Below are positions 3,741 through 62,060 of a stretch of 64,000 bases of DNA, piece by piece. Position numbers and translations under genes: made by a program. Under the pieces are notes generated by a model. The model was not told where the DNA came from. It did no database searches and saw nothing but the letters and a program-made list of their open reading frames with translations. Positions within the stretch are counted from its first letter, which is position 1. Each line of letters begins with the position of its first letter. Source of the stretch: Prasinococcaceae sp. CCMP 1430 (lineage: Eukaryota > Prasinodermophyta > Palmophyllophyceae > Prasinococcales > Prasinococcaceae); assembly GCA_013416795.1 (NCBI GenBank), contig RQSC01000007.1:31085-95084 (forward strand). The letters run 5' to 3'.

Positions 3741-3965
3741 GAGTTCCGTGCGGCATCACCACCCGCCCGCCCAAAATGTAACGCTATTCAACCGCTGCTG
3801 CGTGGCGTGACATGCGCGCGCGCAGACGCGCGCGCGGCGTACAAAACAGACAATCTTTCTTGCGTCACATGTGGCGGCAGGAGGCGCGCGTGCGAGCCCT
3901 GCCCGCGCGCCGCGCCGCCGCCGCGGCGGCGGCCTCGCGCCCTTCGTGCGATCAACGAGGCAGGA

Positions 3966-25913: not shown

Positions 25914-26598
25914 GGAGGAGGGCGTGGCCCCGCCGCCACAACAGCAGCACCAGCAGCAGCACCAGCAGCAGCAGCAACAACAACAACAACAGCAACAGGC
26001 CGCGGGCGAGGGCGCGACCGAGGAGGCAGAGACCGAGGTGGCTACCGCAGCGGACGACTCAGCTGAGCGGCGCGAGGCGAGCGGCGAGCGGAGCGGCGAC
26101 GATGGACCCGCCTCGTGTGCGGCGGGGGGACTATCGGACGCCGCGCCTGCGTCCGAATCCGTTCCCGCTTCCGACGCTTCTGTGCTCGACTCGCCGGGCG
26201 CCTTGACCGCGGCCATGGGTGGTGCCACAAGGGCGGTGACGGAGGGAGAGCACGCCGATGATGGCGGCGTTGCGAGCGCCACAGAGCGCGTTGAGGCCAG
26301 CGAGCGCATGCAGGCGACGGCGGAGGTCGCTACGGCGTCGACGGCCAGCGCCGGGCGGCGACAAGAGCGCGCGGTGCCAACGCCCGCGGCCGCTGCTGAG
26401 GCGGCCCGCGGAGGCGGCGCCGACAGCGACGATGCGGTGGCGGCAGCGGCGGCGCGAGCGCGGCTGGCCGCAGAGCTCAGCGCCGCGCGACGCGAGCAAT
26501 CGAGTGTGTCGACGCTCACCGGCGTGCTCGCCGTGGCGCTGCTCGCGGTAGCAGCGCGTAGGATCATGCGCCTCAGCGGCGTGTCTCTGGACCTCTGA
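25914..26598 (+). pseudogene. UBE2J 3' fragment without E2 domain
   Basis: This open frame is identical to the C-terminal part of the complete UBE2J gene at 27852: poly-Gln/His segment, acidic Ala-rich linker and tail anchor, ending at TGA 26596-26598. The ubiquitin-conjugating domain is missing, and the upstream sequence is unrelated and low complexity. It is either a truncated duplicate or an assembly artefact. There is no sign it makes a working enzyme. Confidence 0.85.
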
Positions 26599-32738: not shown

Positions 32739-33890
32739 TCACAGTAGCAGCGCGTCGGAATTGGAGACGGAGGTACGGCGCGTTGCCGCGACGCCGTCGC
32801 GGTGGGTGTAGTTCACAGGCATGCTCTCCGCCCTGCGCAGGCCGGAGCCTGCTCGGCCCACTCTCCCTGCGAGGGCGCTCTTGGGGTCAATCAAGTCATC
32901 GCTCAGAGCGAGGTCCTCGTCGTGCAGAAAGAGGCACTTGTGGCCGTATTTGCACGTCCCTGTGAGCGCCCACGTTCTGCAGCGAACTGTCTTGTATTTG
33001 GGGTGGCGTATCACCTCGCGAAGCTCGGACGCGCCGTGGGCAAAGCGGCACTTTCGTCCGTAGCGGCACGCGCCGAACGTCTCGAAGGACCGGCACAGCT
33101 CCGTCTTGTAGAGCTGCGCCTGCTGCTGTGCCTCCCGAGACTGTTGCGCCTGAAGCTCTGCGTGATCTGAGAGCACGCGAGTCGTTGGCAGAGGTGAGCC
33201 TGAGCTGACAGGCAGGCTCATGGCACGCTGCAAACCGCCCGCCGATGCCCTTGGCCTCGCGCGCACCGCTGACATTGCACCGCTGTTTTCAGGCATACCG
33301 CTGTCGTGGTGTGTGCCTCCGCCCTCCGCATGCGCAGAGGTTCCGCCCCCTCTGCGCGGAGGAACGCGGTCTCCGAGCGCGGGCCAGGGCGACGCGCGCG
33401 TCGGCCGCCCCTCCGCCGGTTCGCACCGTGCCACCGGCGTGACGCTCTCCCAGTCCATGCTGAGCGCCCTCGCGAGCGGACGGCGCGGATGGCGCGGATG
33501 GGTGGGCGGGCGCGCGCATGCCAGTGCCAGGCGGCTTTCACCACCATGCCCTGGAAGAGCACCTCTGTCATCTTGGCGCCCGATAGGGTGCACTGGCGTG
33601 CGAGGGCGGAGGGGGCTCGTTTCGACGTGCGGGGCGGAGGAGCCCAGCGACTGCGAGCGCGCCAGCGAGGGGGGGCTGCCTCTGAGCGACCCGAGCGGTA
33701 CCAGGCCGCGTCCAGTGGTGTTGTTTGGGCCAGGAGGCTGGTGCAGTTGGGGGTGATTCTGTTGTGGTAGCGAAGCCTCCGCCGCTGCCGCGCGGCCGAA
33801 AACGAAAGCGCCGCCGCGGCGCCGCCGCGGGCAGGAGAAGTACTTCACTATTTTATGGTACAAATGTACCGACGGGCGATCACAATACAT
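32739..33890 (-). CDS. Tandem CCCH zinc-finger protein (TIS11/ZFP36-like)
   Basis: Two Cys-x8-Cys-x5-Cys-x3-His fingers lie about 18 residues apart: YKTELCRSFETFGACRYGRK with CRFAH, and YKTVRCRTWALTGTCKYGHK with CLFLH. Both have the YKTxxC lead-in of TTP/ZFP36 proteins, which bind AU-rich elements in mRNA 3' regions and promote decay. The flanks are Ser/Pro/Gln-rich and contain basic-x-x-Ser sites (RAMSLP, RRAESMP, ARSQSL) like those phosphorylated and bound by 14-3-3 in animal homologues; that parallel is inference. From the ATG at 33890 the protein is 383 residues. The first codons fall in AT-rich DNA that looks like leader, so the ATG at 33458 (239 residues) is a good alternative. Confidence 0.88.
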   Translation of the reverse strand: MYCDRPSVHLYHKIVKYFSCPRRRRGGAFVFGRAAAAEASLPQQNHPQLHQPPGPNNTTGRGLVPLGSLRGSPPSLARSQSLGSSAPHVETSPLRPRTPVHPIGRQDDRGALPGHGGESRLALACARPPTHPRHPRRPLARALSMDWESVTPVARCEPAEGRPTRASPWPALGDRVPPRRGGGTSAHAEGGGTHHDSGMPENSGAMSAVRARPRASAGGLQRAMSLPVSSGSPLPTTRVLSDHAELQAQQSREAQQQAQLYKTELCRSFETFGACRYGRKCRFAHGASELREVIRHPKYKTVRCRTWALTGTCKYGHKCLFLHDEDLALSDDLIDPKSALAGRVGRAGSGLRRAESMPVNYTHRDGVAATRRTSVSNSDALLL

Positions 33891-34363
33891 ATCAACGTCT
33901 TTGAAGGAATCAAACGCCGTGTGATGCGCGGGCGCCGTTTGACCGGGGCACGCCAGGATCGGAGCGCGGTGTTTGGGTTATGTGTTTAGGGTCAGTTGGT
34001 AGGGTGCGGATCCGCGCTCGGCGAGGCCCGGGCGCGGCGTGGTGCGACGGTTTGGATCACTGGTTGTCACTGTCCGCGTAGAAGAGCCTCTCCAGCAGGC
34101 CCTCCCGCAGGTCAGCGTCGCGCGGCCACGGCCGCAGGCTCGCAGCACCAGCGGCCGTGGGTGGCAGCTCGCAGTGACACAATGTAAGATGACTACTACA
34201 AGTACATGTCCACTCGTGGCTCTCACAAAATATCTGCACCGCCGTAGCTCTCTTCACCAGCTATTGCGGCACTCGCGCTCGTGCAGGTCTGCACCCGCCG
34301 AGGGGGGAGCTGCGCTGTGCGCGCGCGCTCTAGAGCTGCCACAGCGCGCGCATGCCCTCCACT
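33891..34363. other. Intergenic region with a possible 66-residue frame
   Basis: This contains the CCCH gene's upstream region (AT-richer at 33840-33920) and a telomere-like TTTAGGG at 33985-33991. A minus-strand frame at 34057-34257 ends in LREGLLERLFYADSDNQ, which looks protein-like. Its first half (Cys/His-rich, low-GC DNA) does not, and I cannot support it as a gene. It could be a last exon of something unplaced. Confidence 0.35.
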
Positions 34364-35648
34364 CTATTTGGTCCTTTTGAAGAAAGAGAAGCCGTTGGTG
34401 GCTGTGCTCGCCGGCCTGGCCTTGCTCGACAGCTTCGCCTTGGTGGTGAGCTTCTTCTTTGGCTGCGTCTTCGCGGCGGTGAACTTCTTTGTGCCGCCGG
34501 TACTGAAGTTGAAGAAAGAGAAGCCGTTGGTGGCTGTGCTCGCCGGCCTGGCCTTGCTCGACAGCTTCGCCTTGGTGGTGAGCTTCTTCTTTGGCTGCGT
34601 CTTTGCGGCGGTGAACTTCTTTGTGCCGCCGGAACTGAATAAAGAGAAGCCATTGGTGGCCTTCTTCACGCTTTTCGCCTTCTTCGCGGTCGCGGCCTTC
34701 TTCGCTGTCGACACCTTCTTCGTGCCCAGTCCGTACTTGGACGCGGGCTTCTTGACCTTCTTCGCGGTCGCGGCCTTCTTCGCTGTCGACACCTTCTTCG
34801 TGCCCAGTCCGTACTTGGACGCGGGCTTCTTGACCTTCTTCGCGGGCGCGGCCTTCTTAAGTAACTCAGCCCTCTTCGCTGCCGCGGCTTTCCGGGCTGC
34901 TGCGGCCTTCCTCGCCGCCGCAGCTTCCCTCTTCGCGGCCGCCGCCTTCGCCGCCGCCGCTGTCTTCTTCGCCACCGCGGCTCTCTCCCTCTTCGCTGCG
35001 GCCTTCTTCAATGCGACCTGCGTACGAATGTCAGATGAATACTTGGGCTTCTTAATCGTAGTCGTAGTCGTAGTCCGGGTCGTAGTCGTCGTCAGGGTCC
35101 TAGTCGCGCTCGCGCGCGTCTTGGCAGCAGGCGCCGCGCGCTTCTTGGCAGCAGGAGTGCGCGCAGCCTTTTTTGCAGCAGGGGCACCACTGCCAAACAA
35201 GCCGCCGAGCAATCCCCCAGCGGGCGCCTTCTGAGAGGCGGCAGACGCGGGCGGCGGGCGGCTGAACGTCTTCAGCTGCCTCGTCTCCACTGAAGCGATG
35301 GCCGCGAGTCGCTCGCGCTGGAGCTGCTCCTTAGAGGGACCACTCTTCACGATGTCTGTGACTTCTGTCTTCAGACCTGAGACTTCTGCCTTGAGTGAAA
35401 AGAGTGCACCCGTGAGCTCGGACACCTCACTCTTCAGCCTGTCTCTTTCGGCCTTCACATCGGAGAGTTCCGCCACGCTCCTCGCGGGCGCAGCCTTGGC
35501 AGCGGGCTTGGCCGGAGCCTCTTCCTGCTCCTTCTCTGCGGCGGGCGCGGGGGCCGGCTTGGCAGCGGGCTTGGCAGCGGGCTTGGCCGGAGCCTCTTCC
35601 TGCTCCTTCTCTGCGGCGGGCGCGGGGGCCGGCTTGGCAGCGGGCTTG
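34364..35648 (-). CDS. Lys/Ala-rich repeat protein (histone H1-like tail), 5' end in gap
   Basis: About 428 codons are visible from the gap to the stop. Order from the N-terminal side: KPAAKPAPAPAAEKEQEEAP repeats, a 70-residue coiled coil (ERDRLKSEVSELTGALFSLK region), a Gly/Leu patch (GGLLGGLFGSG), then an H1-like tail of AAAKR/AAARK. Two 26-residue repeats around KKPASKYGLGTKKVSTAKK and copies of a 44-residue unit around TNGFSFFNFSTGGTKKF follow. The tail would bind nucleic acid or acidic polymers; the coiled coil suggests oligomers. There is no winged-helix H1 domain in the visible part, so calling it histone H1 would go too far. The N-terminus and any targeting signal are lost in the 569-base gap. 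Confidence 0.65.
34379..34838. repeat. Coding tandem repeats, 132-base and 78-base units
   Basis: Two near-identical 132-base units (from 34379 and 34511) plus a partial third, then two 78-base units (from 34683 and 34761), all in the frame of the Lys/Ala-rich protein. Units differ by only a few bases, which points to recent unit duplication. Confidence 0.85.
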
Positions 35649-36217
35649 NNNNNNNNNNNNNNNNNNNNNNNNNNNNNNNNNNNNNNNNNNNNNNNNNNNN
35701 NNNNNNNNNNNNNNNNNNNNNNNNNNNNNNNNNNNNNNNNNNNNNNNNNNNNNNNNNNNNNNNNNNNNNNNNNNNNNNNNNNNNNNNNNNNNNNNNNNNN
35801 NNNNNNNNNNNNNNNNNNNNNNNNNNNNNNNNNNNNNNNNNNNNNNNNNNNNNNNNNNNNNNNNNNNNNNNNNNNNNNNNNNNNNNNNNNNNNNNNNNNN
35901 NNNNNNNNNNNNNNNNNNNNNNNNNNNNNNNNNNNNNNNNNNNNNNNNNNNNNNNNNNNNNNNNNNNNNNNNNNNNNNNNNNNNNNNNNNNNNNNNNNNN
36001 NNNNNNNNNNNNNNNNNNNNNNNNNNNNNNNNNNNNNNNNNNNNNNNNNNNNNNNNNNNNNNNNNNNNNNNNNNNNNNNNNNNNNNNNNNNNNNNNNNNN
36101 NNNNNNNNNNNNNNNNNNNNNNNNNNNNNNNNNNNNNNNNNNNNNNNNNNNNNNNNNNNNNNNNNNNNNNNNNNNNNNNNNNNNNNNNNNNNNNNNNNNN
36201 NNNNNNNNNNNNNNNNN
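35649..36217. other. Assembly gap (569 N)
   Basis: The gap falls in the KPAAK repeat region of the Lys/Ala-rich gene; repeats are the probable reason the assembly failed. The sequence after the gap has no proven link to that gene. Confidence 1.
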
Positions 36218-36995
36218 GCGCGGCGCCGGGCCCGGACCCCTCCGCTCGCCCAGCGGAACCCATGCCGTTTGGGCTAGCAGTGGGTCGCCCGTGGGTAGCA
36301 CTCGCGCGCGGCCGTGCCGCGCGCGCGGCACGCGCCGCTGCCACCGCGCTCGCGCCGCCGACGGGGTGAAGGTTTAATTATTAGGGTTTGACTCATTAGG
36401 GTTTAATATCGCGGCGGCGATCGGACGGGGGGCCAATGAACAGCAAGGGAACCGGAGCCGGAACTGGAATTGACTGAAGTCTTGCCGTTGGTGGATTCGG
36501 ATTCGAGGCGCCACAACAGGTCTCAATCCGGATCAAGCTCGGGGCGAGAGATCCTACGAAGTCTACCTGGTATCATAGTCATAGCGACGGTAGACTCCTG
36601 TGAGAACACGACTAGCTACCACGTGGTACGCCCGACCGACCGACAGGCACAACAGGCGACGAGGCAAGGCCCAGCGGTCCGCCCACCCGCCCGTCCGCCC
36701 CGCCCCTCCCGCCCGTGCACGCACATGTGCACCCGCGGCCGCCGGCCGGGCGTCGCGCGACGGCGTGCGGGCTGCGGCGTCGCGCGACGTTACGCGCGCG
36801 CCTGGGTGGGTGCTGGCTGATGGTATGCCGCCATTGGCTTTCGCGCGGTGCGGATTGGCCCGCTGCTCTGCGCGCGCGCGCGCGTTCGGGGAACCGCGGA
36901 GGCCGCGCGGCGAAAGCGCGGCGGGGATGCGCGAATGCGGGTGCGGGCAGATGGCGGGGCGCGCCGGTGCGCGCGCGGCGAAATCCGGGCCGTCG
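36218..36995. other. Upstream region of the giant surface-protein gene
   Basis: GC-rich at both ends with an AT-richer middle (36370-36620). The middle holds TTAGGGTTT twice (36381-36389, 36396-36404) and a purine-rich stretch. This is the likely promoter and 5' leader of the gene starting at 36996. No separate gene is seen. Confidence 0.45.
36381..36406 (+). promoter_or_regulatory. Pair of TTAGGGTTT telo-box-like words
   Basis: Two TTAGGGTTT words with starts 15 bases apart in the AT-rich upstream region of the giant gene. On the other strand they are AAACCCTAA. A regulatory role is inferred from position and recurrence only. Confidence 0.35.
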
Positions 36996-39900
36996 ATGGC
37001 GCGGTGCAGTGCGCTCGCGCTCGTGCTCGGCGCCGCCGCGGCGGCGGGGGCCGCCGCGCAGTCGGCCGACCTCTTCGTGACGGAGCTGCTGCAGCGGCCG
37101 ATCACGCTGATCACCAAGGGCGTGTGCGCCGCCGAGAACTTCGACACCCCGGTGGGCCTCACCGTGCCCTCGCAGATGGTCCCGTGGGACGGCGGCGACT
37201 TCACCTTCTCGCTGCGCGTCGACACCGACATCCCCGACGACAAGCCGTGGTCGTGCTCGGGCTACTCGTGCGGCGAGTCGAGCACCGGCGCGCTCTTTGG
37301 CATCAACGGCCAGTTCTCGCTCGGCATGTCGGACGTCTTCTCGAAGATCAAGATCACCATCCCGTCCATTCCGTCGATGTACCACGCGCAGGAGGGCGTC
37401 GGCTCGCTTTCGAAGTCGATCGACGGTCGCGCGAGTTCGAAGCGCCGCGCGCTGCTCGCCACCGAAGACAGCGCCACCGACGGCGGTGACGGCGCGCTCC
37501 TCGATGCGCCAGGAGCCGTGGTCGCGAACGCCACCTCGCGCGGTCTGAAGTTCTACGGGGGCAAAGGCGGCGGCGGATGGAATGGCGGCGGCGGTGGCGC
37601 GGCCAATCTGCCCAAGAAGGACGACAATCCCGACGAGTACGACGTCACCGTCATGCGCCGCGGCTCCCAGGTTGCGGCCTGCGTCAACGGCGACATGGTG
37701 GTCGAGTGGACCGACGTCGAGTACTGGGCGGAGGGTGAGATCATGCACGATGCGCCCTACTCCGAGGCCGACGGCCAGGTGTTCTTTGGCTACACGACGC
37801 CCCAGCACTGGGGCCCCTCGTCGGGCCAGCCGCCCTCCTCCCCGGCCTTTTCCATCCCCGGTGAGTACAAGAGCGCGCGGATCGCCAACAAGGCCTTCGA
37901 CACGTGCGAGGAGGCCGTGGCCGCCACGCTGGATGCCGTGGAGGCGGAGGACGGCTCGCTCATTCCATACGCCGACGAGGCAGCCAACGTCAAGCCAAAG
38001 GTGGAGCTCACCTCGTCACTCGGCTCGTCGATGTTCGTCAACGACGAGACGACCATCAGAGTGCGCGCCACCGACGCCGATGGCGAACCCATCAAGGTGA
38101 CGGTGACCTTCTTCGCCCGCCCGCCCGAGGAGTGTGACTGGCCGCAGTGCAACTCCAAGTCCACCCACCTGATCAACGGGACGGGCGAGGCCGAGCTCGA
38201 GATCAAGAATTTGTGGCCCTTCCCCGGGCGCTTCCTCGTGCGGGTCGTGGCCACCGACTTCCGCGGCGGCATCGACGTGCTCGACGTGCCCTTCATGGTT
38301 CACAAGATTGGGGACACCAACTTCAGCGCGCCGTGCTGCCGCTACGCGGTGGAGACGATCCACTACGCGCCGAAGAAGGGCCCCCACAACACCAGATGGA
38401 CCAACTCGGGCGACCCGTACGAGCGGCTGTACAACTACCAGATCATCGCCGACCCCTTCCCCGAGCAGCGCCTCGACGTGCTGTCCTGTAAGGGCATGCA
38501 CCATGCGGGCCCCGGGACGTCGATCAACTTCGGCGTGTACATGAACAAGGACCGCGGCTCGAGCCAGCGCTTCGTGCTCGTCCCGACCACGAACGGCTGC
38601 GGCAGCACCTACTCGCACCCCTACCTTGACTATGGGGCGGCCTCGGAGGAGGGCTCCACCAACGACGCTGGGCTGGCGTGCGGATGCACCAAGGGCGGCA
38701 CCAAGCTCATCATCGAGGAGGGCCTGGGCCTGGACAACATGAACCAGTTCTACATCCGCGTGTCCTACGGCCGCATGTCGCTGCACTGGGACCCGCCCAT
38801 CTTGCCCCCCGTGAACGGGCGCGCATCGGTGAGCGACATCACCGATGCCTTCGATGGCAACCCGTTCTTTCGCCACTTCATGTTCTACCAGGAGCAGAAC
38901 CCCGGCACGGGCAACTCAGGCACTGGTGGCGGCAAGATGTCGCAGCTCTCTGGCTGCGACTTCGGCTCGGGCAAGATCCCCGGCATCATCATTGCGCACG
39001 AGATCGGGCACGCGTGGGACCTTGCGCACGCCGAGATGTGGACCAACACCGACTCCTCGCAGGTGTCGATGAAGGACCCCGCGAGCTCGCAGGGCCAAGG
39101 TTTCACGGAGTACATGGACTACTGGTCGGTGATGGGCAGGGGTATTGACTTCAACGAGGTCGATCGCCTGCGCCTCGGGTGGATCCACGAAACAGAGCAG
39201 AAGCTCTGGCTGAAAGCGGACCGCGCGGTCGTCAAGGAGGAGATCCTCGTGCTGCACCCCGTCGACCGCGCCGAGTCCAAGGGCAACCGCCTCATGCTGA
39301 CTTTCGAGGGCAACGAGGCGCCTGTGTTCCTGGCGTGCATGTTCCGCTCGTTCAGCGGCTCCCCGCGGGACTCGCTCCGCCTGGGCAGGTGGGGTGGCTT
39401 CTCGCGCGGCAGTGTCAGCACGAGTCAGCACCTCCAGGGCAACATCCAGGGCTTCAGCTGCATCCGATCGAAGGGTGGCTCGAAGCGCCTCAGCCGCGAC
39501 GACTTCCGTGTGGACTTCAACGTCCTCGATGGCGACTACCCAAGCCTGCTGCCGCGGAGCGCGGGCTCCAACCCTCCGGAGGGCGGCCTCGCCAACGGTC
39601 TCGCGGCCGGCAAGACATGGTACTACCAGGAGGGCGGCATGTCCGTGTCGGTGCTCAACATCGGCGAGGACGCCTGCGACACGCCCCCGCTCTACCCGCT
39701 GTTCGACGAGTGGGGCGTGAACACGTACGAGTGCATGTCTGTCAAGGTCAAGACAGGCCTGGAGGTGGACAGGCCCTTTATGGGCCGCAAGGTCACGGTG
39801 GGCTACACGCTCGCCGACGCCGCGGTGCCCGTGCTGGCGAACACGGGCAAGCAGTGCGGCGAGGTGGATGTCAAGCTGGCGGTGAGTGTCGAGCTCAGCG

Positions 39901-42900
39901 TGGAAGGCGAGGAGGACCTCGAGCCTGAGGCCATCGCCTGGCGCGATGCCAGGGGCAAGGTCGTCTTCAGCGGCTCGACCAGCGCGAACCTACCGCTCGT
40001 TTCGGGGAGCGAGGTGACCATGTACGCCTCCTGGGACGACTCGACGCAGGCGCGCCTGAAGATCGAGATCACCGCGCTGACGGCCACACAGGCCACCCTC
40101 AAGATGACGTCCATTCGGTTGCACGACGGCGCCAAGAAGGAGGAGGAGGACCTGGGCACTGAGACCGTTCCCATCGACGGCGCGAGCCTCGACCTCGGCT
40201 CCGCGCGCGGCATCACGCTCTTTAACGAGGCTGGCACCAAGCCCGCACTCGGCAACGGCTTTGTGGTGAACGCCGACGGCCTGCTGCCGGTCACCTCCTG
40301 CCGCGCTTTCACCGTGACGATGCTCGCGGACCTCTCCAAGGCCGAGGACGGCGACGTGCTCTTCTCCATGTCGGACGAGCTCGTCGATCACCCCAAGCTG
40401 CTCGTTAAGATTGGCGTGACCTCGTCGTATTGGAGCACGTCAAAGACGCTCTCGGTGTGCTGGCTCACCGGGCAGCCGTGCATGCCCGTGACCTTGCCCG
40501 ACACCGGCTCGACCTCGCACCTCGCGCTGGTCGTGCAGGAGAACGGCGACAACGTGGAGGTGCAGGTGTTCTTCGACGGCACCGAGCTCGGCGATCGCGG
40601 TGACTACAAGCCTTTCCTGCGCAACGGTTGGTGCATCCCCGATGCGAGCCAGTACCCTCAGCGCGGTTCGTGGAGCTCGAGCCCGAAGGCGTACGGCAAC
40701 TGCGCCAGCGAGCCGCTCGGTGCCGGCCTGCCGCCCATGGAGGCGCTGCGCTTCGGTGGCGCCGCGGCCAAGGGCAAGAGCGGCCCCAACGGCGTGGCCA
40801 CGCACGCGCGCTTCTACAACTTCCCGCTGTCAAGCTCGCAGATCAAGAGCGACAACGAGTGCGCCTCTCGCAAGACGTGCGAGTCTGAGCTCGGTCTCGG
40901 TGCAGCCGGTGACTCGCCGCCAGTGCTCGAGACGCTGCGCGTGGCGCGCGAGGACGGCGAGGACGACGACGACGACGATGGGGCGCTCGAGCTCTTCACT
41001 GACACCGAAGCGGTCTTCGAGTACACGGCACGTTCTGTGACCGGTGAAGGCACCGTCGGATTCGAGGTCAGCACTCGCGAGGGCGGCGTAATCCACACGG
41101 ACAGCGCCGAGGGCGAGGTCTCCGGCACCTTTAAGGTGTCGTTCTCTACGCCGGGCACGTACGCCGTGGCTGTGAAAATGACCGCCGGCGAGGCTGTGGC
41201 CACCGAGTACGCCATGGCGCACGTGCACCGCCCAGGGTCGGGCCTCGAGCACAAGGGGCGCTTCGTGCTGCCGCGCGGCGCCGACCTTGACATGTCGATC
41301 AACCCCGCCGACCAGTTCTCCGACTTTGACGGCCAGTACACCTTCTCCAATGTGCTCGTTTTCGACGACGCAGACGCACCGCAGTGCGCGCTCCTCCAGA
41401 ACCCAACCACCGGTATGCTCATCACCATCGATGCTGGCGCCAGCACCTTCACCGTCAGCGGACGCACGGGCAGCGCGCCGCCAGCGGCTTACAACAAGGA
41501 CGGCACCTTCCCGGAGAGGCACCACCTGCAGGTGGCCACCACCGGCTCGACCACGGAGGTCTTCCTGAACGGCGTCTCCGCCGGCAGCCTCAAGGCCATC
41601 GGCCTGAGCAGCCCGGGCGCCGCCGGCGGTGAGCTGCGGCTTGGAGCCAAGGTGGACAGCGACAAGATCCCGACTTGCGAAGGCGCCGTTGGCAAGGCCA
41701 GCTTGTACAACTACTTCATCGGCGCAAACGCGCTCGAGATGGAGAGGCGCTGCCCCGAGCGCGGCTCGTGCAAGGTCTTCAACATCTGCTCGTACGCGGA
41801 CACCGACAAGGCGTGCCGCAAGTTCTTCGACATCAATGCGGAGCTTGACACGCTCAACAACCCACCGCCGCCTCCGCTGCCGCCGAGCCCGCCGAGCCCT
41901 CCGCCGAGCCCGCCGACACCGCCGCCGAGCCCGCCGCCGCCGCCTTCACCGCAGCCGCCACCGGCGCCGCCGAGCCCTCCGCCGAGCCCGCCGCCGCCGC
42001 CTGGCCCGCCGCCGAGCCCACCGCCGTTTCCACCGCCAAGTCCGCCGCCGAGCCCGCCGCCGCCCCCAGCGCCTCAATACCGCGCCGCGGAGGCGACCAT
42101 GTTCGACTGCGGCACGTCGGTTCAGCTTCCGCTGACGATCGAGGCCATCCTCCAGGTCGATGCGCCATCCGAGTCGGGCGCAGCGCAGGTCATCTGGGCG
42201 GCGCACGATGGCAGCGGCGACGATCCGGCGCTCGTCTTCCAGATTCGCGACGGCAAGCCGGAGCTCAAGTACAAAGGCACGCTCCTTGCGCCGCCGACGC
42301 CGCCGCCCAGCCCACCTAACCCTCCGCCGCCGAGCCCTCCTACCCCACCTCCCATGGGTGGCGGGGGTGGTGGGCTCGAGAGGCCTGATTTGGGCGACGG
42401 CGAAGGAGGGCTTGGTGGCATCCCGGACGACATGAAGGACAAGGTCCCGCCGATGCCCGAGGGTGCGCCCCCTTTCCCTGACAGGCTCGCCGGCCGCAGG
42501 CCGGGCGGCCAAAACAAGCCCGACTGGCTCAATGATATGACAGGTGGCGGTCACGAGGGCGCCGGTGGTAGCCCCTTCGGCTCCTTCGGCTCCCACGGCG
42601 GCCGGAAGATGCTCTTCGGCAGCTGGGGCGGCAACAACGGCTCTCCCAGTGGGAGTGGCTCCTCTCACGACGACGACGACGACGACGAGATCCTGGAGTT
42701 TACGACCATCTCCGCCGACGAGGGCGCCAACAAAGAGGGCGCTTGGCAGCACGTAGCCGTCGCGATCGCGCCGCGCGGTTTCGTCTCGATCTACCAAGAG
42801 GGCCTGCGCATCGGCACCGGCCAGATCAACGTGGGCGGTCTGCAGGCCTTCAGCGACTTCTCGCTCTTTGGCTACGCCCACGAGAAAGAGAGGTACTGGC

Positions 42901-43610
42901 AGAGCAGCCCAAAGGAGTTCACCATGTACGACCCCTTTGAGGGCATCATCGACGAGATTCGCATCTACAACACGAGCCTGCTGCTGGAGGACCTCCTCGA
43001 CATCCGCGCCTCGGAGCCTGCCTCCAAGGGCCTCGTCCACCACTATCCTTTCTACTACCAGGGCCACGAGCCAGGGGACGTCCGCGAGATTGCCGACGTC
43101 GTGGGTGGTAACGACTCGTGCGAGCCGTCCGAGGCCGGCGAGTGGTACGCCCAAGAGAAGGCTGACGAGGAAAACGAGGCGCAAAACCCGATGAGGTACC
43201 CGCAGTGGTACCTCGAGCGAATCGGAAAGAACATCGTGACCGTCGAGCCGACGATCCTCAAGTTTGTGGAGTCGGACGCTGGCCTTGGCGGGTCGTTCGA
43301 CGGGCTGTACAGCCCGCCACCGCCGCCGAGCCCGAGCCCGCCGCCGCCGAGCCCGAGCCCACCACCACCAGGTCAGCCGCCGAGCCCGCCGCCAGAGCCA
43401 CCGGCTCCGCCGCCGAGCCCGCCCCTCGACTGGTATCACTCCCACAATCCCGACCATCACCACCATGACGACGACGAAGATGATGCCCCTGCGTCGCTGC
43501 CCAGCGCTCCGCCGAGCCCGCCGCCGAGCCCGCCGCCGAGCCCCCCGCCTCCGCCGCCTCCTCCGCCGAGTGCACCGCCTAGCCCGCCACCGAGCCCGAC
43601 GCGACGATGA
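36996..43610 (+). CDS. Giant mosaic surface protein, N-terminal segment (metzincin protease, LamG, SPPP)
   Basis: This 2,204-codon segment opens with a signal peptide (MARCSALALVLGAAAAAG...). A KRRALLA motif follows near residue 149. The zinc-protease site HEIGHAWDLAH (first His about residue 668) and a later Met-turn-like YWSVMGRG mark a metzincin, closest in style to M11/gametolysin-type algal enzymes, which digest cell walls. Three LamG-like beta-sandwich regions follow (about 40.2-40.9, 41.2-41.8 and 42.1-43.05 kb). The third is split by a Pro/Gly-rich insert with GGRKMLF and an Asp run. SPPP linkers resemble hydroxyproline-rich algal wall glycoproteins. The frame stops at TGA 43608 inside the SPPP linker; the reading resumes one frame over at 43607, so this is probably the first part of one larger protein. 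Confidence 0.85.
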   Translation: MARCSALALVLGAAAAAGAAAQSADLFVTELLQRPITLITKGVCAAENFDTPVGLTVPSQMVPWDGGDFTFSLRVDTDIPDDKPWSCSGYSCGESSTGALFGINGQFSLGMSDVFSKIKITIPSIPSMYHAQEGVGSLSKSIDGRASSKRRALLATEDSATDGGDGALLDAPGAVVANATSRGLKFYGGKGGGGWNGGGGGAANLPKKDDNPDEYDVTVMRRGSQVAACVNGDMVVEWTDVEYWAEGEIMHDAPYSEADGQVFFGYTTPQHWGPSSGQPPSSPAFSIPGEYKSARIANKAFDTCEEAVAATLDAVEAEDGSLIPYADEAANVKPKVELTSSLGSSMFVNDETTIRVRATDADGEPIKVTVTFFARPPEECDWPQCNSKSTHLINGTGEAELEIKNLWPFPGRFLVRVVATDFRGGIDVLDVPFMVHKIGDTNFSAPCCRYAVETIHYAPKKGPHNTRWTNSGDPYERLYNYQIIADPFPEQRLDVLSCKGMHHAGPGTSINFGVYMNKDRGSSQRFVLVPTTNGCGSTYSHPYLDYGAASEEGSTNDAGLACGCTKGGTKLIIEEGLGLDNMNQFYIRVSYGRMSLHWDPPILPPVNGRASVSDITDAFDGNPFFRHFMFYQEQNPGTGNSGTGGGKMSQLSGCDFGSGKIPGIIIAHEIGHAWDLAHAEMWTNTDSSQVSMKDPASSQGQGFTEYMDYWSVMGRGIDFNEVDRLRLGWIHETEQKLWLKADRAVVKEEILVLHPVDRAESKGNRLMLTFEGNEAPVFLACMFRSFSGSPRDSLRLGRWGGFSRGSVSTSQHLQGNIQGFSCIRSKGGSKRLSRDDFRVDFNVLDGDYPSLLPRSAGSNPPEGGLANGLAAGKTWYYQEGGMSVSVLNIGEDACDTPPLYPLFDEWGVNTYECMSVKVKTGLEVDRPFMGRKVTVGYTLADAAVPVLANTGKQCGEVDVKLAVSVELSVEGEEDLEPEAIAWRDARGKVVFSGSTSANLPLVSGSEVTMYASWDDSTQARLKIEITALTATQATLKMTSIRLHDGAKKEEEDLGTETVPIDGASLDLGSARGITLFNEAGTKPALGNGFVVNADGLLPVTSCRAFTVTMLADLSKAEDGDVLFSMSDELVDHPKLLVKIGVTSSYWSTSKTLSVCWLTGQPCMPVTLPDTGSTSHLALVVQENGDNVEVQVFFDGTELGDRGDYKPFLRNGWCIPDASQYPQRGSWSSSPKAYGNCASEPLGAGLPPMEALRFGGAAAKGKSGPNGVATHARFYNFPLSSSQIKSDNECASRKTCESELGLGAAGDSPPVLETLRVAREDGEDDDDDDGALELFTDTEAVFEYTARSVTGEGTVGFEVSTREGGVIHTDSAEGEVSGTFKVSFSTPGTYAVAVKMTAGEAVATEYAMAHVHRPGSGLEHKGRFVLPRGADLDMSINPADQFSDFDGQYTFSNVLVFDDADAPQCALLQNPTTGMLITIDAGASTFTVSGRTGSAPPAAYNKDGTFPERHHLQVATTGSTTEVFLNGVSAGSLKAIGLSSPGAAGGELRLGAKVDSDKIPTCEGAVGKASLYNYFIGANALEMERRCPERGSCKVFNICSYADTDKACRKFFDINAELDTLNNPPPPPLPPSPPSPPPSPPTPPPSPPPPPSPQPPPAPPSPPPSPPPPPGPPPSPPPFPPPSPPPSPPPPPAPQYRAAEATMFDCGTSVQLPLTIEAILQVDAPSESGAAQVIWAAHDGSGDDPALVFQIRDGKPELKYKGTLLAPPTPPPSPPNPPPPSPPTPPPMGGGGGGLERPDLGDGEGGLGGIPDDMKDKVPPMPEGAPPFPDRLAGRRPGGQNKPDWLNDMTGGGHEGAGGSPFGSFGSHGGRKMLFGSWGGNNGSPSGSGSSHDDDDDDEILEFTTISADEGANKEGAWQHVAVAIAPRGFVSIYQEGLRIGTGQINVGGLQAFSDFSLFGYAHEKERYWQSSPKEFTMYDPFEGIIDEIRIYNTSLLLEDLLDIRASEPASKGLVHHYPFYYQGHEPGDVREIADVVGGNDSCEPSEAGEWYAQEKADEENEAQNPMRYPQWYLERIGKNIVTVEPTILKFVESDAGLGGSFDGLYSPPPPPSPSPPPPSPSPPPPGQPPSPPPEPPAPPPSPPLDWYHSHNPDHHHHDDDEDDAPASLPSAPPSPPPSPPPSPPPPPPPPPSAPPSPPPSPTRR

Positions 43611-44160
43611 CCGCCTGCGAGCCCGTGCGCTCGAGCCCGCCGCCGAGCCCGCCGCCTCCCACTCCGCCGCCGAATCCTCCGCCACCGAGCCCACCTCCCG
43701 GTGCGCCTGTCGCTGGACCGCCGCCGCCTCCTCCTCCACCGCCGCCCCCGCCGCCGAGCGCCCCGCCGAGCCCTCCGCCAAGCCCTCCGCCGACTCCGAG
43801 CGCGCCGCCGAGCCCGCCTCCGAGCCCACCGCCACCACCGCCGCCGCCGCCGTCAAGCCCGCCGGCACCGCCGCCCTCTCAGCCTCCAAGCCCGCCGCCG
43901 CCGCCGCCGCCGCCGCCGTCGATGCCTCCGAGCCCACCGCCAGGCTCGCCACCGCCTCCGAGCCCGCCGGCGCCACCGCCGAGCCCGCCCATCGAGTGGC
44001 TGCACTACATCGCGCCCTCGCCACCGACGCCGCCTCCGGTGCCCAGCGCACCGCCGAGCCCGCCGCCACTGCAGCCGCCGAGCGCGCCACCGAGCCCGCC
44101 GCCGCCGCCCAACCCGCCGCCGCCACCGCCGCCTGCGCAGCCGAGTCCGCCCATTGAGTG
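43311..44160. repeat. SPPP-coding low-complexity block
   Basis: Repeated CCG/AGC codons encode Ser-Pro(2-5) runs across the junction of the two reading frames of the giant gene. Further SPPP blocks lie at about 41863-42075 and 42290-42350. Such sequence is prone to sequencing and assembly slips. Confidence 0.85.
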
Positions 44161-47100
44161 GTGGCACCCTGGTCGGTACCACGCCCCGAACCCGCCTCCG
44201 CCGCCTCTTACGAAGAAGCAGAAGAAGGCCGCGAAGAAGGCCGCGGAGGCGGCGAGCTCGGACGGGGGCGTGTGTGACGGCCTGAACAAGAAGAAGTGCA
44301 AGAAGCAGGCGGGCTGCACGTACAAGAAGAAGCAGTGTATTGAGGACACGAGCGCGCGCCGTGCCTTGCTCCAAAAGAAAATGAAGAAGAGCAAGTCCGC
44401 TGCGCCACCCCCGGCGCCGCCTGCCGTCGTCGAGGCTGTGTTCGCCTCCGTGCTCGACTGCGGCGAGGGTTTCCCTTCGTCGCCCTTCACTATCGAGGCC
44501 TTCGTGTACGCGAGCACGGCCGCCGAGTACACCGAGACGCAGCGCCTCGTGACCGCCGAGGCGGTCGACGCGTCCGAGTTCAGCGTCGCTTGGCACCTGT
44601 CAATCCGCCGCGGCTCGCCGGTCTTCGGCTACGTGGCGGATGATGAGGTCGAGGAGGTTGCGGCCCCCTCGCGCTTCGAGCTGCGAAACCGCTGGCAGCA
44701 CATCGCCGTCAGCGTGGGCGACGGCGCCATCGTGCTATACCAGGAGGGCGTGGAGGTCGCGCGCGCCGCGATGCGCGGCGAGCCGGCTGCCGCGTCCAAC
44801 ATTCAGCTGGGCGGCTACGCCTCGCGTGCCTGGGAGGGCGCGGAGGCCGTGCATTCGGTCTTTGATGGCCTCATCGACGAGGTGCGCGTCTTCTCCGGCG
44901 TGCGATCGGCCGCGGACATCCTCAGCTACGTAGGTGTGTCCGGTACGACCGCCCAGATGCCGACATTGCAGCGCCTGTACAACGTGCGCTTCGACCCTGC
45001 GTCCTCGAGCATCGCACCGGCGGTCCTCAGGGACGCGACCGGCAACAGTGGCGGCTGCACGGTGTCGCCCGAGGCTTACGCCGCGGGCTACGGCATTGAG
45101 TGGCTTCCTGATGGCTCGCAGTCTGCTGGCCTTGAGCTCCCCGCGGTGGTGGCGTCACCGCCTCCCGCTCTCATCGAGCTGCCGCCGCTGTCGCTGTCGC
45201 CGCCGCCGGCTATCGCCACCGCCGAACCGCCACTGGCGGTCGGGGAACCGACCGCCTTCGCGACGCCTCCGGCTTATGATTACGATTCAGAGGAGTGCGC
45301 AACGCCGCCATCGAGGACCTTCACGCTGCCTGGAGGTGGCATGCTGCCCTTCAGCGGCGCCTCAGGCTGCTCGCCGATGTCGTCGCCCTTTGGGTCGACC
45401 TCGTCGTACATGACCGCCTACGAGCACGCGAGGCTGGACGGCCACGGGAGCTTCGGGTGCCAGACCTTTGACGCAGCAGGCGACGGCCTCACGCTGACCT
45501 TCTCGCTCAAGCCCGCGCGCGCGTTCACCGGCGCTGTGGCCGCCATGCTCGATGGCGACGGCGATGCCTTTATGACCATTGGCATTCAGACGGGCGGCTG
45601 GCTCGAGGCCAGGGTGCTTTCGGACGAGGCCACCGGCCGCAAACTGGGCGTCACCCTCAAGGAGCCCGCGTTGGCCTCGGGCGACAGGTGGACCACGTGC
45701 AGCCTCGTGCTGTCGGGGTCGAACGCCAGGCTTGCTTGCGGCACCGCCTCGGTTTCTGAGGATGCCGCGAACGACTTCCCGCTGCCGGACACTGCCGCGC
45801 TCATCATCGGCGCCCACGAGATCGATGCGTCGGGCCACGGCTTTGAGGGCGAGGTCGACGACGTGCGCGTGTGGTCCAAGGCGCTGCGCACGAGCCAGAT
45901 CCAGGTCAACCGTGACAACGAGCTCGTCGGTGACGAGGATGGCCTTGCTGCGTACTACCGCATGGGCGAGGCTGGAGGGCACGACTGTGCTCGACGCCAC
46001 CGGCCATGGCGCCGCGTGCGAGTTCGTCAGCACAGACCTCGACACGCCCGCTGCAAGCATTTTCGTGCATGTGCCTCTGACCGAACGCCGCCTGTATGCG
46101 CCCGAGCCCAAGCCGGCACTCACGAAGGATGGCGGGCGCCGCCGCTCTTTGCTGCAGACGGTGCCGCCGGCGCCGGCAAGCGCGGTCACTCTCGCGCCCG
46201 AGGGTGCCAAGGCCACGTGCGCGCAGATCCTCGCGGAGACTCCGGCGCTCGAGGGTCTCGACGGCCAGCGTGTGGTCGCGCTGCCCGATGGCGCCGCACA
46301 GAAGGTGTACTGTGACATGACGCGCTTTGGCGGAGGCTGGACGCTGCTCGTGAACAACGCGGGCGGTGGCGGATTCACCCAGGACAACGTGCTGCGCCGC
46401 TACCCCGCGAATCCCAACATCATGTCCGACTACTCCAACTTGGCCATGACGGACACGATCCTCGCCGCCGGCGCCACCGGCCGCCCCTGGCACTACATGG
46501 TGGAAGTTGTGGTCAAGCCCGACGCGGACGCTGCGGTCACTGAGTCTCGCGGCGCGGTGTACTCCGCTCCGGCCAACTCCTCGCTGATCGGCGGCAACTC
46601 AAAGCGGGCATCGGTCAGCCTGGTGGAGCGCTTCGGCGAGTGGCGTGCGTCGCCGCTCGGCCTGCAAGACCTTCTCCCTACCGTTGTGACCGATGGCTCC
46701 GACGATGACGAGACGCACGCGCTGCTCTCGACGGGCATCCGCCCTCTCGCCAGCCCGTGGGGTGCACTGGTCAATGCCGGCGAGCTACCCGACGCTTGCA
46801 ACGCTGCCACGACATTCTTCGATGCGTGCGTGGTTAACACGCGCCTCTGGGTGCGGGAGGCCGGCGACGCGCCCGTCGAGGAGCCCGAGGAGGTGACGGT
46901 GAGCGCGTGCGACCTCGCGCTGTGCGAATCGGCCGCCACCAACCAGTGCAAGCAGGCACAGTGCCTCGACGATGGCACGTGCGCGTTCGAACTCAACAAG
47001 CCCGACGGCACCGCGTGCGATGACGGCGACAGCTCGACGCACCTCGACGAGTGCGACGCTGGCGTGTGCCTCGGCTACACGCTCGTGTCGCGCCAGGTTG

Positions 47101-49646
47101 CGCCCCTGACGCCTGCGCAGGTAGAGCGTGCGGCGTCTGGCGAGCGTGTCGGTGATGCGGACGCTTCGTTCGTGGATGCGGCCGCCATCAAGAGCCTCAG
47201 CTCGCGCGGGGGCGTCAACTACGCGCTGCACTGGCCGGGCACGCGCTTCAGCACGCAGACGTGGACGCAGAAGAGCTACCCATGGGAGTCGAGGACCACC
47301 TCAAAGGCACGCGGTTTTGCCGCGCGCAAGGTAACGCTGGTCGGCTTCGCTGGACTGGTCGGTGACGGCGGTGACGAGCTCGCGGCGCTCGCGCAGGCAC
47401 CCGCAGTCGGCTTGAAGGTTGGCGCCGCGCGCTCGTACTTCGACGGACTGCCCGGCCCGGGCGTGCTGCCAGTGGACACCATCGAGCTCTACGCGCGCGA
47501 GGTGCACTCGGACGGTGGCGTTGACGAGACCGCGACCTGGACGATCACAGTGATTACGGTCCTCGTGGTCACGCTCGCGGGGCTCCTTCTGCTGAGCCTG
47601 CGCCGAATGAGGAAGAGGGGCGAGGACGTCAAGATGGGCATGCTCTCCGGGCTGAGCGTCGCTGCTGGGCACCTCGGCATTCCAATGAGCGAACGCGTGC
47701 TCGAAGGCACGGGACACAGGTCGTTCTCCGGCTCGTTCCTGGCATCGCCGACGGCGCGCGCGGAGGCGGCGCTCATTGCCGTGCGTTCCGAGGTGTGCAA
47801 GAACTCGACCGAGCGCTGGGGGAAGCTCAGGAAGCAGTTCGAGGCGGGCTCGTACCCCTTCCGCCCGCACATGCGCCACCGACTCGTCAAGCTCATGCGC
47901 CGCTACTTGAAGCCCGACGGCAGGCTCGACCGCAACAAGCTCCAGCGCCTCGAGGTGGCGCAGCGCGTCACCATCAAGCGCTCACAGGGCGCGTCGCTGA
48001 GCGAGCGCCTCAAGGACGAGCTCTTCCTCATCAGCGCGTACGTTTTCGACACCCTCAGCCCAGGCGTAGACGCCATGGGCAAGTTCTGGCCCGTGCTCAG
48101 CCCGCTGGTGTGTATGGTCATCTTCGGCGTGCACTCCTTCATGGCGGGACAGTACACCACCTACCAGACGGAGCTTCGCTACCGCGAGTGCGAGGCCGAG
48201 CAGGCGATCGCAGCCGCAAGCCGCGCGGAGACCCAGGCGCTGCTCGCGCAGGTGACTGCCAGTGCGGCGCTTGCACTCGAGTCCGCAAACGCTGCGCAGG
48301 AGACTGCAGCGCTCGTCGCCAATGCCACCATTGCCGAAGCAATCGACGCCACCGACACGACCATCGCCACACTCACCGCGATGTCCGACAACCAGGCACG
48401 CCAGCAGCAGGAGCAGGGAGGCAAGCAGGGCGATCTCGGCAACGACGTGTTCGCGCGGGTGCATGACGCACATCGCGCGCAGGATCGCGTGGGCGCGCTC
48501 GAGGCCGAACTCGACCTCGACAATCTCAGTCGCGAGGAGCAGGTCATGCTCGAGCAAGCCCGTGCCGACAAAGACCGGCAGGACGAGAGCGTGAAGTCGC
48601 TCTTTGATGAGGTCAGCGCCCTCGACTCAGAGATGCAGGCCGGCCGCGACCTGGCCGACAACGCGGAGACCGTCGCCACGCTTCACGAAGAGAAGCAGCA
48701 GACACGCATCAGTGCCGCACAGGGCCTCGCTGATCTTCAGATCGGCCAAGCCCAGGTGATTGCGTCAGGGGCTACCGATCAACTCGATAGCGCCGCTGCT
48801 GCTACTGCCGCCGCCAACGACCTGCTCGATCCGTGGGCGGCCGTTGGCACCCTCGACGCCAGCTTGCTCGCCAGCGATGCCGCCGCGGTGGCGCTGCTCG
48901 AGGCTAAGCTCAGCGCCGTGTCCGGCAACGGCTATGGCGCCGTGGAGCACACCTGCGAGCTCTTTGCCCCCACGCGCGCCTCCCCTGGCATCTTCGAGTC
49001 GAGCCTGCACGGCTTCTCAAAGCCTTTTGACGCCGAGTACCTCGTGCGCTGGGGTGCGCGCTACGTGCCGTCGCTTCTCGAAGACACCGAGGGCTATCGC
49101 TTGATTGCGAGCACCTTTGTGCACGGCAGCTGGAGCCAGCTCTCCACTTCGATGCTCGTTATCGGCGTCGTGGGCATTCTGCTTGAGCGCCGCTACGGCT
49201 CGCTGCGCTTCCTGTCTGTCTTCGTGCTGTCAGCGCTGGGTGCCAACTTCGTCGGCGCGCTTGCCGACTCGGAGTGCGACGTCGTCACCGGCGCCACGGG
49301 TGCTACCTTCGGCCTCATGGCGTTCTATGTTCTCGACGCGGCGCTGTGCTCCTTCCACGCCGTGGCGCCCCCCACCATCTTCGCCTGGTCGTCGGCCACG
49401 CTCGTGTCGCTCATCCAGATTGCTGCGGCGTTCACGGGCGGCTCGATCGGCCACCTCACCAACTTCGGCGGATTCGTCACCGGCCTCGTCGTGTCGACGA
49501 TCATGATCCCGCACTTTGTGCAGGAGCGTCTGGAGGTGCTCGTGCTGCCCGTGACGGCGATCGGGATCCTTGTGGTGTTCGCCGTGCTGCCGGCCGTGTT
49601 CTACGTGCAGAGCACCCCTTACTGCGCGGAGCAGTGGGAGCTCTAA
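43607..49646 (+). CDS. Giant mosaic surface protein, C-terminal segment (LamG, fibrinogen-like, pseudo-rhomboid)
   Basis: Two frames join at about 45974 by skipping one base. Order: long SPPP linker; ARRALLQ; LamG-like domains at 44.43-44.95 and 45.4-45.98 kb; RRRSLLQ; a fibrinogen-like domain (KVYCDMTRFGGGWTLL); a Cys-rich repeat (GTACDDGDSSTHLDEC); a transmembrane helix at about 47.54-47.60 kb; a second helix at about 48.08-48.15 kb; a 250-residue coiled coil; then a rhomboid-like domain of several helices. In that domain GASG reads GATG (Thr codon 49296-49298), while the partner His remains in GHLTNFGGF, so it is probably not an active protease. The segment lacks its own signal peptide, supporting a single gene from 36996 of about 4,200 residues. 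Confidence 0.8.
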
Positions 49647-53783: not shown

Positions 53784-54040
53784 CGCGCGCGAGAGAGAGA
53801 GAGCGCGCGCGCACGCGCGCGAGAGCGCCTACCGAGCGCCCGCCGAGGGCGCCTGTGGAGGGCGCCTGTGGAGGGCGCCTGCGGTAGCGCCTGCAGGTGC
53901 GCCTGCTGAGCGCGCCTGCGGGCGCGCTCGGCCGGCGCGCCTCTCGCGCCTCCCCTCACCCGGCCTCGCCCCGGTTCACCACCCCTTCCCCCTACCCCCG
54001 TCTGAGGGACACGCGCGGTCTGCCATGCCACGCGCGCGCC

Positions 54041-61748: not shown

Positions 61749-61784
61749 CCCGCCGGAAGGCGCGTCCCACCCGCCCCCCCTTCA

Positions 61785-62060
61785 NNNNNNNNNNNNNNNN
61801 NNNNNNNNNNNNNNNNNNNNNNNNNNNNNNNNNNNNNNNNNNNNNNNNNNNNNNNNNNNNNNNNNNNNNNNNNNNNNNNNNNNNNNNNNNNNNNNNNNNN
61901 NNNNNNNNNNNNNNNNNNNNNNNNNNNNNNNNNNNNNNNNNNNNNNNNNNNNNNNNNNNNNNNNNNNNNNNNNNNNNNNNNNNNNNNNNNNNNNNNNNNN
62001 NNNNNNNNNNNNNNNNNNNNNNNNNNNNNNNNNNNNNNNNNNNNNNNNNNNNNNNNNNNN
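61785..62060. other. Assembly gap (276 N)
   Basis: This run of N separates the divergent TLC gene from the truncated DHHC gene and hides the start of the latter. Confidence 1.

Follow-up and report, generated by a model that had tools for sequence, protein, structure and literature searches.

Could one gene encode a chain that begins with a metalloprotease and ends in a rhomboid, and what would such a protein do? The question is raised by positions 36996..49646 of the window, i.e., the whole 64,000-nucleotide stretch of DNA that was analysed. An original prediction had read this region as one apparent gene for a protein of about 4,200 residues. All coordinates given below refer to the + strand.

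Gene Layout and Reading Frames

The proposed coding unit consists of about 4,200 codons, starts with the ATG at 36996, and is distributed over three frames with two frame breaks. It was delimited from the open reading frames (ORFs), the GC content at third codon positions (GC3), and colinear relatives. Three ORFs (ORF1, 36594-43610; ORF2, 43583-46315; ORF3, 45576-49646) resemble parts of one gene, and no uninterrupted ORF spans 36996-49646 in the assembly; the frame shifts near 43.58-43.63 kb and at ~45.98 kb. The first break (43583..43631, frame 0 to frame 2) was located from the ORF map inside a long SPPP linker and is bridged in relatives. The second (45970..45985, frame 2 to frame 0) was located by alignment and has an intact copy in the relative P0004. 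GC3 is maximal in frame 0 for calculation windows starting at 36400-43000, in frame 2 for those starting at 43900-45400, and in frame 0 again from 45700. The two that start at 43300 and 43600, within the proline-rich linker, have their maximum in the remaining frame, an exception taken to be a composition effect of the proline codons.

The searches, which scored 8,000 candidates each, yielded at least six relatives, and the depth of the resulting alignments is small. P0006 is an independent protein of 3,932 amino acids whose domains follow the order seen in the window within a single chain: the protease (residues 25-525), LamG-like domains, a fibrinogen-like domain, a Cys-rich stretch, a transmembrane (TM) helix, and the rhomboid unit, with the rhomboid core at residues 3688-3926. 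Its identity to the window protein is 31-67% per matched stretch, or about 40%. P0007 joins ORF1-type and ORF2-type domains, while P0004, which is ~99% identical to the window, joins ORF2-type and ORF3-type domains and crosses the second break uninterrupted. Because independent relatives carry the domains in one chain and both catalytic residues of the rhomboid are lost, the reading of the three ORFs as one gene for a giant mosaic protein, in which a metzincin-like protease would be joined to an inactive rhomboid, is supported. The original prediction thus holds with regard to the one-chain relatives, P0006 above all, but in the assembly itself the gene is broken into three ORFs. It had also named a split into separate units at about 43.6 kb as the counter-case; P0006 and P0007 are single chains that continue through the region matching the first break.

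Two or three adjacent genes, coding for a secreted protease, a LamG protein, and a fibrinogen-like pseudo-rhomboid protein, would explain why the ORFs are separate and why the TGA that ends ORF1 (43608-43610) shares bases with an ATG at 43607 in the ORF2 frame. P0005, which may be a fragment, starts at the fibrinogen-like domain, as one of these genes would. Nevertheless, this explanation was rejected on the one-chain relatives P0006, P0007, and P0004, and it is highly improbable; the stop/start overlap was likewise rejected as a functional feature.

If both breaks were true mutations, the locus would be one gene of the species that has decayed in this strain, as a pseudogene or a null allele. 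The presence of two breaks agrees with this, and the P0009/P0007 pair may show breaks in relatives too. However, the remainder of the ~12.6 kb is open and has a strong third-position bias, decay would have to be very recent given that P0004 is intact at the second break, and assembly indels account for the same facts. Decay is considered quite improbable. Instead of an indel, the first break could also represent a spliced intron, which would leave the protein otherwise unchanged. As many as 334 GT-AG pairs could join both frames without a stop, but this number is too large to be informative, and P0006 and P0007 run through the linker as single chains, though as gene-caller products they are possibly spliced themselves. 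An intron is regarded as unlikely.

N-Terminal Region and Metzincin-like Protease

The predicted signal peptide agrees with the sequence after the ATG: a signal-peptide-like start (36996..37061; hydropathy peak 1.63 at 37005) was recognized by eye. It is followed by two domains with sub-threshold profile matches, a ConA-like domain (37056..37985; DUF1961, 15.7 bits, cut-off 25; 31% identity to P0009) and an Ig-like domain (37986..38309; Big_7, 14.0 bits, cut-off 24.1; 46% identity to P0009).

The metzincin-like protease domain (38310..39761) was identified by its zinc-site and Met-turn-like motifs together with a match to the M6-domain profile TIGR03296. The motif HEIGHAWDLAH lies at 38997-39029 and the Met-turn-like SVMG at 39126-39137. 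In the four aligned family sequences, HE[IM]GHA[FW]DLAH is invariant and is always followed by the motif DYW[SA][VL]MG[NR]G, assigned as a Met-turn from sequence only. All four retain HExxH and the third His of the zinc site HExxHxxGxxH/D, and all four have Asp in place of the metzincin Gly. TIGR03296 is the best curated profile match over this part; it resembles the domain in the zinc site and the Met-turn (E 7.8e-4, residues 226-296), and differs in that the match covers only 71 aligned residues and, at 19.4 bits, stays below the M6 cut-off of 110.8; P0009 gave only E 0.3. Reprolysin_5 was weakly matched by all four sequences (best E 0.0049). Of the M11-like protease that had been proposed, the HEIGHAWDLAH motif stands, but membership in Peptidase_M11 (gametolysin) was rejected (PF05548, 11.5 bits, cut-off 21). 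The M11 search of the own genome returned no match and was uninformative, as control queries were equally silent.

The structural approaches added little: the AlphaFold model of the protease is unusable (pLDDT 28.6), and the best matches in a profile search of the PDB were an aspartic protease (E 0.38) and then MMP2 (E 2.4). Relatives of the protease were found neither among 22 pattern stretches from prokaryote genomes nor among 160 stretches from viral contigs, nor among four with P0004 as the query. The domain is thus best described as metzincin-like, with putative activity, below the cut-offs of both M11 and M6.

LamG-like and Fibrinogen-like Domains

The middle of the protein is built from LamG-like domains and SPPP linkers. 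Domains were assigned with Laminin_G_3 (PF13385, curated cut-off 27.6). Domain A (40164..40900) has no Pfam hit and is recognized by homology (37% to P0006, 53% to P0007). Domain B (41001..41804) reaches 22.7 bits, and 30.0 bits in a longer piece. Domain C (42087..43082; 28.6 bits) is split by a Pro-rich and Gly-rich insert, and domains D (44468..44920) and E (45464..45904) reach 66.8 and 42.0 bits. Four of the five predicted LamG-like domains are hence borne out by the profile, B only in the longer piece, whereas the fifth depends on its relatives. The SPPP linkers, also predicted, are present in the sequence at 41853..42080 and, in the long form, at 43308..44210.

The fibrinogen-like domain (46215..46871), with the pattern YCDxxxxGGGW, was confirmed by NCBIfam NF040941 (31.8 bits, above the cut-off of 30; 36.4 bits in another run), while Pfam Fibrinogen_C remained below its cut-off of 22 (17.9 bits). 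Its PDB profile matches are of the intelectin type (best E 7e-6, XEEL). This likeness to intelectins and fibrinogen-like lectins is limited by the fact that the matches are mostly confined to the initial 45-63 of the 224 positions in the profile. In prokaryote genomes, partial relatives of the domain made up 3 of the 15 stretches that fit the pattern. The Cys-rich part, as predicted, follows at 46902..47093; it has no match in Pfam and is 55% identical to P0006 and 58% to P0005.

Membrane Part and Inactive Rhomboid

The membrane helices that had been proposed are visible by hydropathy. A single TM helix (47544..47600; hydropathy 2.68) is predicted to close the ectodomain. A predicted cytosolic stretch follows (47601..48092), placed by the rhomboid topology, with a second half 32-36% identical to P0005 and P0006. 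Helix 1 of the rhomboid unit (48093..48149; 1.86) leads into a predicted luminal insert (48150..48960), which according to model and alignment is mostly helical and lies between the invariant Cys 48189 and 48954. The rhomboid domain (49089..49508) and helix 7 (49536..49592; 2.71) complete the unit. Six of the seven helices exceed the hydropathy threshold in the window; the second is below it there and above it in P0006 and P0005. When the C-terminal halves of three sequences are aligned, 21 columns contain a Cys; four of these are invariant, and all four are on the predicted luminal side. Of the coiled coil in the original prediction, a long predicted helical stretch stands.

The profile match marks the rhomboid domain as real, in agreement with the predicted rhomboid-like C-terminus, for which the lack of a profile hit had been named as a counter-result: PF01694 gives 73.3 bits (E 3e-20, cut-off 22.6) for the window, 74.2 bits for P0006, and 59.2 bits for P0005. 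PDB sequence matches of this part are weak (a GlpG homolog, E 0.003; then iRhom1, E 0.08, and iRhom2, E 3.8), and the AlphaFold model of the rhomboid half is poor (pLDDT 50.5). The rhomboid is predicted to be inactive, as had been proposed, because both catalytic residues are lost in each of the four family sequences that include this domain. Ser and His are replaced by Thr 49296 and Asn 49461 in the window; the two sites read GATG/N in the window and P0004, GSTA/N in P0005, and GAAP/N in P0006. Five of the six other rhomboid hits in the own genome keep Ser and His, and one (L014) has GYTG with His. Within the own genome, the rhomboid part is closest to L016 on contig C120 (29% identity over 199 residues), which shares the WGAR motif and an extra helix after the core, but retains Ser (GLSG) and His (SHLGG) and has no long insert in the stretch inspected by eye.

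A dead rhomboid in a real single chain could be a mere multi-pass membrane anchor without regulation. Loss of catalysis with retention of the fold would need no new role, and iRhom signatures are missing. On the other hand, the ectodomain is already ended by a separate TM helix, and the whole rhomboid with its long luminal insert is retained, the core being 37% identical in P0005 and P0006. The anchor-only explanation is a possible one, short of being probable.

Comparison with Known Systems

In animals, the dead rhomboids iRhom1/2 are separate proteins that steer the metzincin ADAM17. This pair, which the original prediction had not brought in, is the closest comparison. The algal layout resembles it in that a metzincin-like protease of the membrane, with accessory ectodomains and a single TM helix, goes together with a dead rhomboid; it differs in that one chain replaces two proteins, and LamG-like and fibrinogen-like domains occur in place of the disintegrin of ADAM17. 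According to the available sections of the sources, iRhoms combine a cytosolic stretch with seven helices, the first two of which are separated by a large luminal insert (PMC6451368, PMC12184519), a topology that the algal protein may share (its second helix being sub-threshold in the window). They are also described there as having GPx instead of GxS and, between helices 1 and 2, a homology domain of ~230 amino acids with 16 conserved Cys (PMC6451368). The algal sequences instead have GAT, GST, or GAA, and two invariant Cys in the mostly helical insert. Since the defining iRhom features are missing, the likeness to a fused ADAM17-iRhom layout would be convergence.

Gametolysin (M11; Chlamydomonas, Volvox) is a zinc metalloprotease of green algae with Pro-rich wall proteins as substrates, and a similar role is plausible for the mosaic protein; gametolysin is described as secreted, and a rhomboid is never mentioned in the available part of the source (PMC8643629), which, along with the sub-threshold M11 score, sets it apart. 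No metzincin-rhomboid fusion was found in the literature searched, partly in excerpts, which left out most subscription journals.

Proposed Role and Significance

At a probability of roughly 45%, the locus would be one green-algal gene for a protease of the wall or matrix that is anchored in the membrane, carries lectin-like domains, and has its own pseudo-rhomboid as an anchor and as a regulator of trafficking or activity. The N-terminal part would be exported, the LamG-like and fibrinogen-like domains may bind glycans or glycoproteins of the wall or matrix, and the metzincin-like domain may cleave proteins of the wall, the matrix, or the surface. The TM helix would terminate the ectodomain, and the dead rhomboid would act on the protease as iRhoms do on ADAM17. 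The putative role as a shed or wall-modifying protease, already suggested in the original prediction, is plausible. It would add a candidate wall-modifying enzyme of a small green alga and a metzincin-like domain with Asp for the usual Gly.

It is a weaker guess that a convertase frees the ectodomain at RR(x)L-like sites. The pattern was picked after inspecting the sequence and compared with shuffles. The window pieces contain four such sites, one of them within the protease domain (shuffle mean 0.89, maximum 4). P0006 contains seven overlapping hits at five places, one predicted to be cytosolic (0.80, maximum 5), and P0007 contains one (0.18); none is listed for P0009. The excess may be a hint only.

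A bolder and rather unlikely proposal is that of a covalently fused sheddase, a one-chain metzincin and pseudo-rhomboid in some green algae in which the latter controls the export and activity of the former, as a convergent version of iRhom-ADAM17. If this is true, dead rhomboids and membrane metzincins became partners on at least two occasions, and chaperoning metzincins would be a general capacity of the rhomboid fold that is easily recruited. A natural green-algal fusion, with ~40% identity in a second lineage, would be an independent case for asking whether dead rhomboids are general chaperones or regulators of membrane metzincins.

Host Lineage

Haptophytes have a red-type Rubisco with a plastid-encoded small subunit. 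A haptophyte host, as the original prediction had assumed, is contradicted by the Rubisco genes of the assembly, which holds more than one rbcL and may come from a mixed sample. The large subunit RbcL L010 scores in the class of 1,018-1,078 bits against plant and green chains and 570-616 against other chains, which we take to be red-type. Together with this green-type RbcL, an RbcS exon on a contig of 67% GC indicates a green alga.

Reading Frames and Relatives

The plus strand contains three long open frames, ORF1 (36594-43610), ORF2 (43583-46315), and ORF3 (45576-49646). The signal-peptide-like start at ATG 36996 and the HEIGHAWDLAH motif at 38997, both proposed earlier, do lie in ORF1. Frame 0 has the highest third-position GC in the window segments starting at 36400-43000 and from 45700 on, and frame 2 in those starting at 43900-45400; therefore, on sequence grounds, the three ORFs look like a single coding region in which the frame changes twice. 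In the segments starting at 43300 and 43600, which cover the proline-rich linker, the remaining frame is on top (0.86 and 0.88 vs. 0.74-0.78), which we interpret as reflecting the base composition of proline codons. The first frame change (43583-43631) falls within this tandem-repeat linker, and the second (45970-45985) close to the point where a LamG domain ends. At 43607-43610, the ORF1 stop overlaps an ATG in the ORF2 frame, probably by chance in a GC-rich repeat.

At least six relatives (P0004-P0009) were obtained, with each search scoring 8,000 candidates. The end of ORF2 together with ORF3 is matched by a single chain, P0004 (1,790 aa); one aligned stretch of 566 residues has 6 mismatches and 2 gap positions, and another of 1,222 has 9 mismatches. 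At the second break, P0004 is intact and a short indel separates the window from it; P0004 stops short of the first break. The linker holding the first break is spanned by P0007 (1,796 aa), which combines the last part of the protease region with LamG A, LamG B, a LamG at 867-1030 in the position of LamG C, and LamG D. In P0006 as in P0007, LamG C aligns best with the LamG D region, and its counterpart is placed by position only. Since the longest contig is 26,094 bases for both P0009 and P0007 and the two abut in the protease region, we infer that a frame break probably divides a single gene into these two.

The original prediction of one mosaic gene (36996-49646) is upheld in part. In the independent relative P0006 (3,932 aa), a single chain runs from protease (residues 25-525) to rhomboid core (3688-3926), with the remaining domains between them in the same order, but the window itself has three frames and two frame changes. 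P0006 is known here as a protein sequence alone and may derive from a spliced or unspliced frame. Its identity with the window per matched stretch is lowest in LamG C (31%) and highest over 24 residues of the Ig-like domain (67%), with 45% for the protease, 45% for the fibrinogen-like domain, 55% for the Cys-rich segment (46902-47093), and 37% for the rhomboid core. The N-terminus, absent from P0006, is present in P0009, where the first two domains show 31% and 46% identity. This architecture was not found in a literature search, most subscription journals lying outside its scope; the parts are known, and their order in one chain, kept between lineages, appears to be new.

Protease and Ectodomain

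The motifs HE[IM]GHA[FW]DLAH and DYW[SA][VL]MG[NR]G occur in all four sequences covering the protease. The proposed M11 likeness did not extend to membership (11.5 bits vs. a cut-off of 21), with M11 matching one member. Reprolysin_5 matches four of four members (best E 0.0049), Reprolysin_4 two, and Reprolysin_3 one (E 0.00049), and the NCBIfam M6 domain profile gave E 7.8e-4 for the window and 0.3 for P0009. A PDB profile search with the protease stayed at chance level (aspartic protease, E 0.38; MMP2, E 2.4, covering the zinc site), the AlphaFold model of the domain was unusable (pLDDT 28.6), and an own-genome search with it returned no match besides itself. The protease is called, from its sequence, a putative divergent metzincin-like domain with no family assignment.

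Five LamG-like domains had been proposed; four, here placed at 41001-41804, 42087-43082, 44468-44920, and 45464-45904, have Pfam support, and one, LamG A (40164-40900), is recognized by homology only. The predicted fibrinogen-like domain (46215-46871) was recovered by NF040941 at 31.8 bits, above the cut-off of 30, with no second such place found in the own genome; its profile matched intelectins and ficolins in the PDB over its first part. Basic RR(x)L-like sites, a pattern picked after inspecting the sequence, lie between domains at 37443, 44357, and 46140, with similar sites in P0006 and P0007, and are possible convertase sites.

Rhomboid-Like C-Terminus

As predicted, the C-terminus is rhomboid-like (PF01694, 73.3 bits) and would be catalytically dead: in alignment, the catalytic Ser and His are missing in the window and P0004 (GATG and Asn), P0005 (GSTA and Asn), and P0006 (GAAP and Asn). 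Because all four lack both residues, the dead state would be common to the family, as far as seen. The own genome gave seven PF01694 matches, the window's included, and alignment indicates that five of the six others (L003, L012, L013, L015, and L016) retain both Ser and His. The sixth, L014 (G000 C43:515091-516504), has Thr for the catalytic Ser (GYTG) and keeps the His.

Hydropathy places a TM helix at 47544, rhomboid helix 1 at 48093, and further helices at 49209, 49308, 49377, 49464, and 49536, all on the plus strand; rhomboid helix 2 is below threshold in the window and above it in P0006 and P0005. The standard rhomboid topology has its N-terminus in the cytosol, and a cytosolic rhomboid N-terminus is consistent with an ectodomain ending at the 47544 helix. 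Four of 21 Cys columns are invariant in a three-sequence alignment of the C-terminal half: two flank the long loop after helix 1, one lies between helices 3 and 4, and one belongs to the C-terminal tail. Each of the four is predicted to face the lumen. The AlphaFold model of the rhomboid half is poor (pLDDT 50.5, pTM 0.26), and among solved structures the nearest by sequence is a GlpG homolog (E 0.003), followed by iRhom1 (E 0.08).

Possible Function and Comparison with iRhom-ADAM17

The protein is most likely located at the surface or in the secretory pathway. Its lectin-like domains may keep it on wall or matrix material, where the protease part would cleave proteins, with the TM helix and dead rhomboid holding it in the membrane. 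Animal iRhoms are obligate partners of ADAM17 and govern its maturation and activity (PMC6451368, PMC12184519, PMC13277793). The layout here resembles a hypothetical fusion of the ADAM17 ectodomain, TM, and tail, followed by the iRhom cytosolic stretch, helix 1, luminal insert, and remaining helices. The iRhom signatures are absent from the algal rhomboid; therefore, iRhom membership was rejected, and the likeness, as compared here, is one of layout. By analogy, the algal pseudo-rhomboid might regulate the protease.

Genomic Surroundings

The neighbours, DNA topoisomerase II (19279-23607), a CCCH zinc finger (32742-33977, minus strand), a DnaJ/zuotin-like protein (53888-55936), and a DHHC palmitoyltransferase (61437-63155), have no obvious link to the mosaic protein. 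A 669-aa minus-strand frame at 34364-36373 has near-perfect tandem repeats of 132, 78, and 75 bases and no Pfam match at E 0.001; GC drops to 0.49-0.53 in this stretch. The same CAG-type repeat array occurs at 25939-25998 and 28398-28457, about 2.46 kb apart, perhaps through local duplication.

The own genome comprises 24.5 Mb in 145 contigs, and the window has 68% GC. A contig with 67% GC carries an RbcS exon (40.1 bits, 32/97 positions). The RbcL locus L010 exceeds 1,000 bits against chains including 1gk8 (Chlamydomonas) and reaches 570-616 against red-type chains. Contig C136 of the own-genome assembly (G000) carries two different full-length 475-aa RbcL frames (L010 and L011, ~41% GC) and a third RbcL match inside a 2,028-aa frame, which would point to more than one plastid genome or to an assembly of mixed origin.
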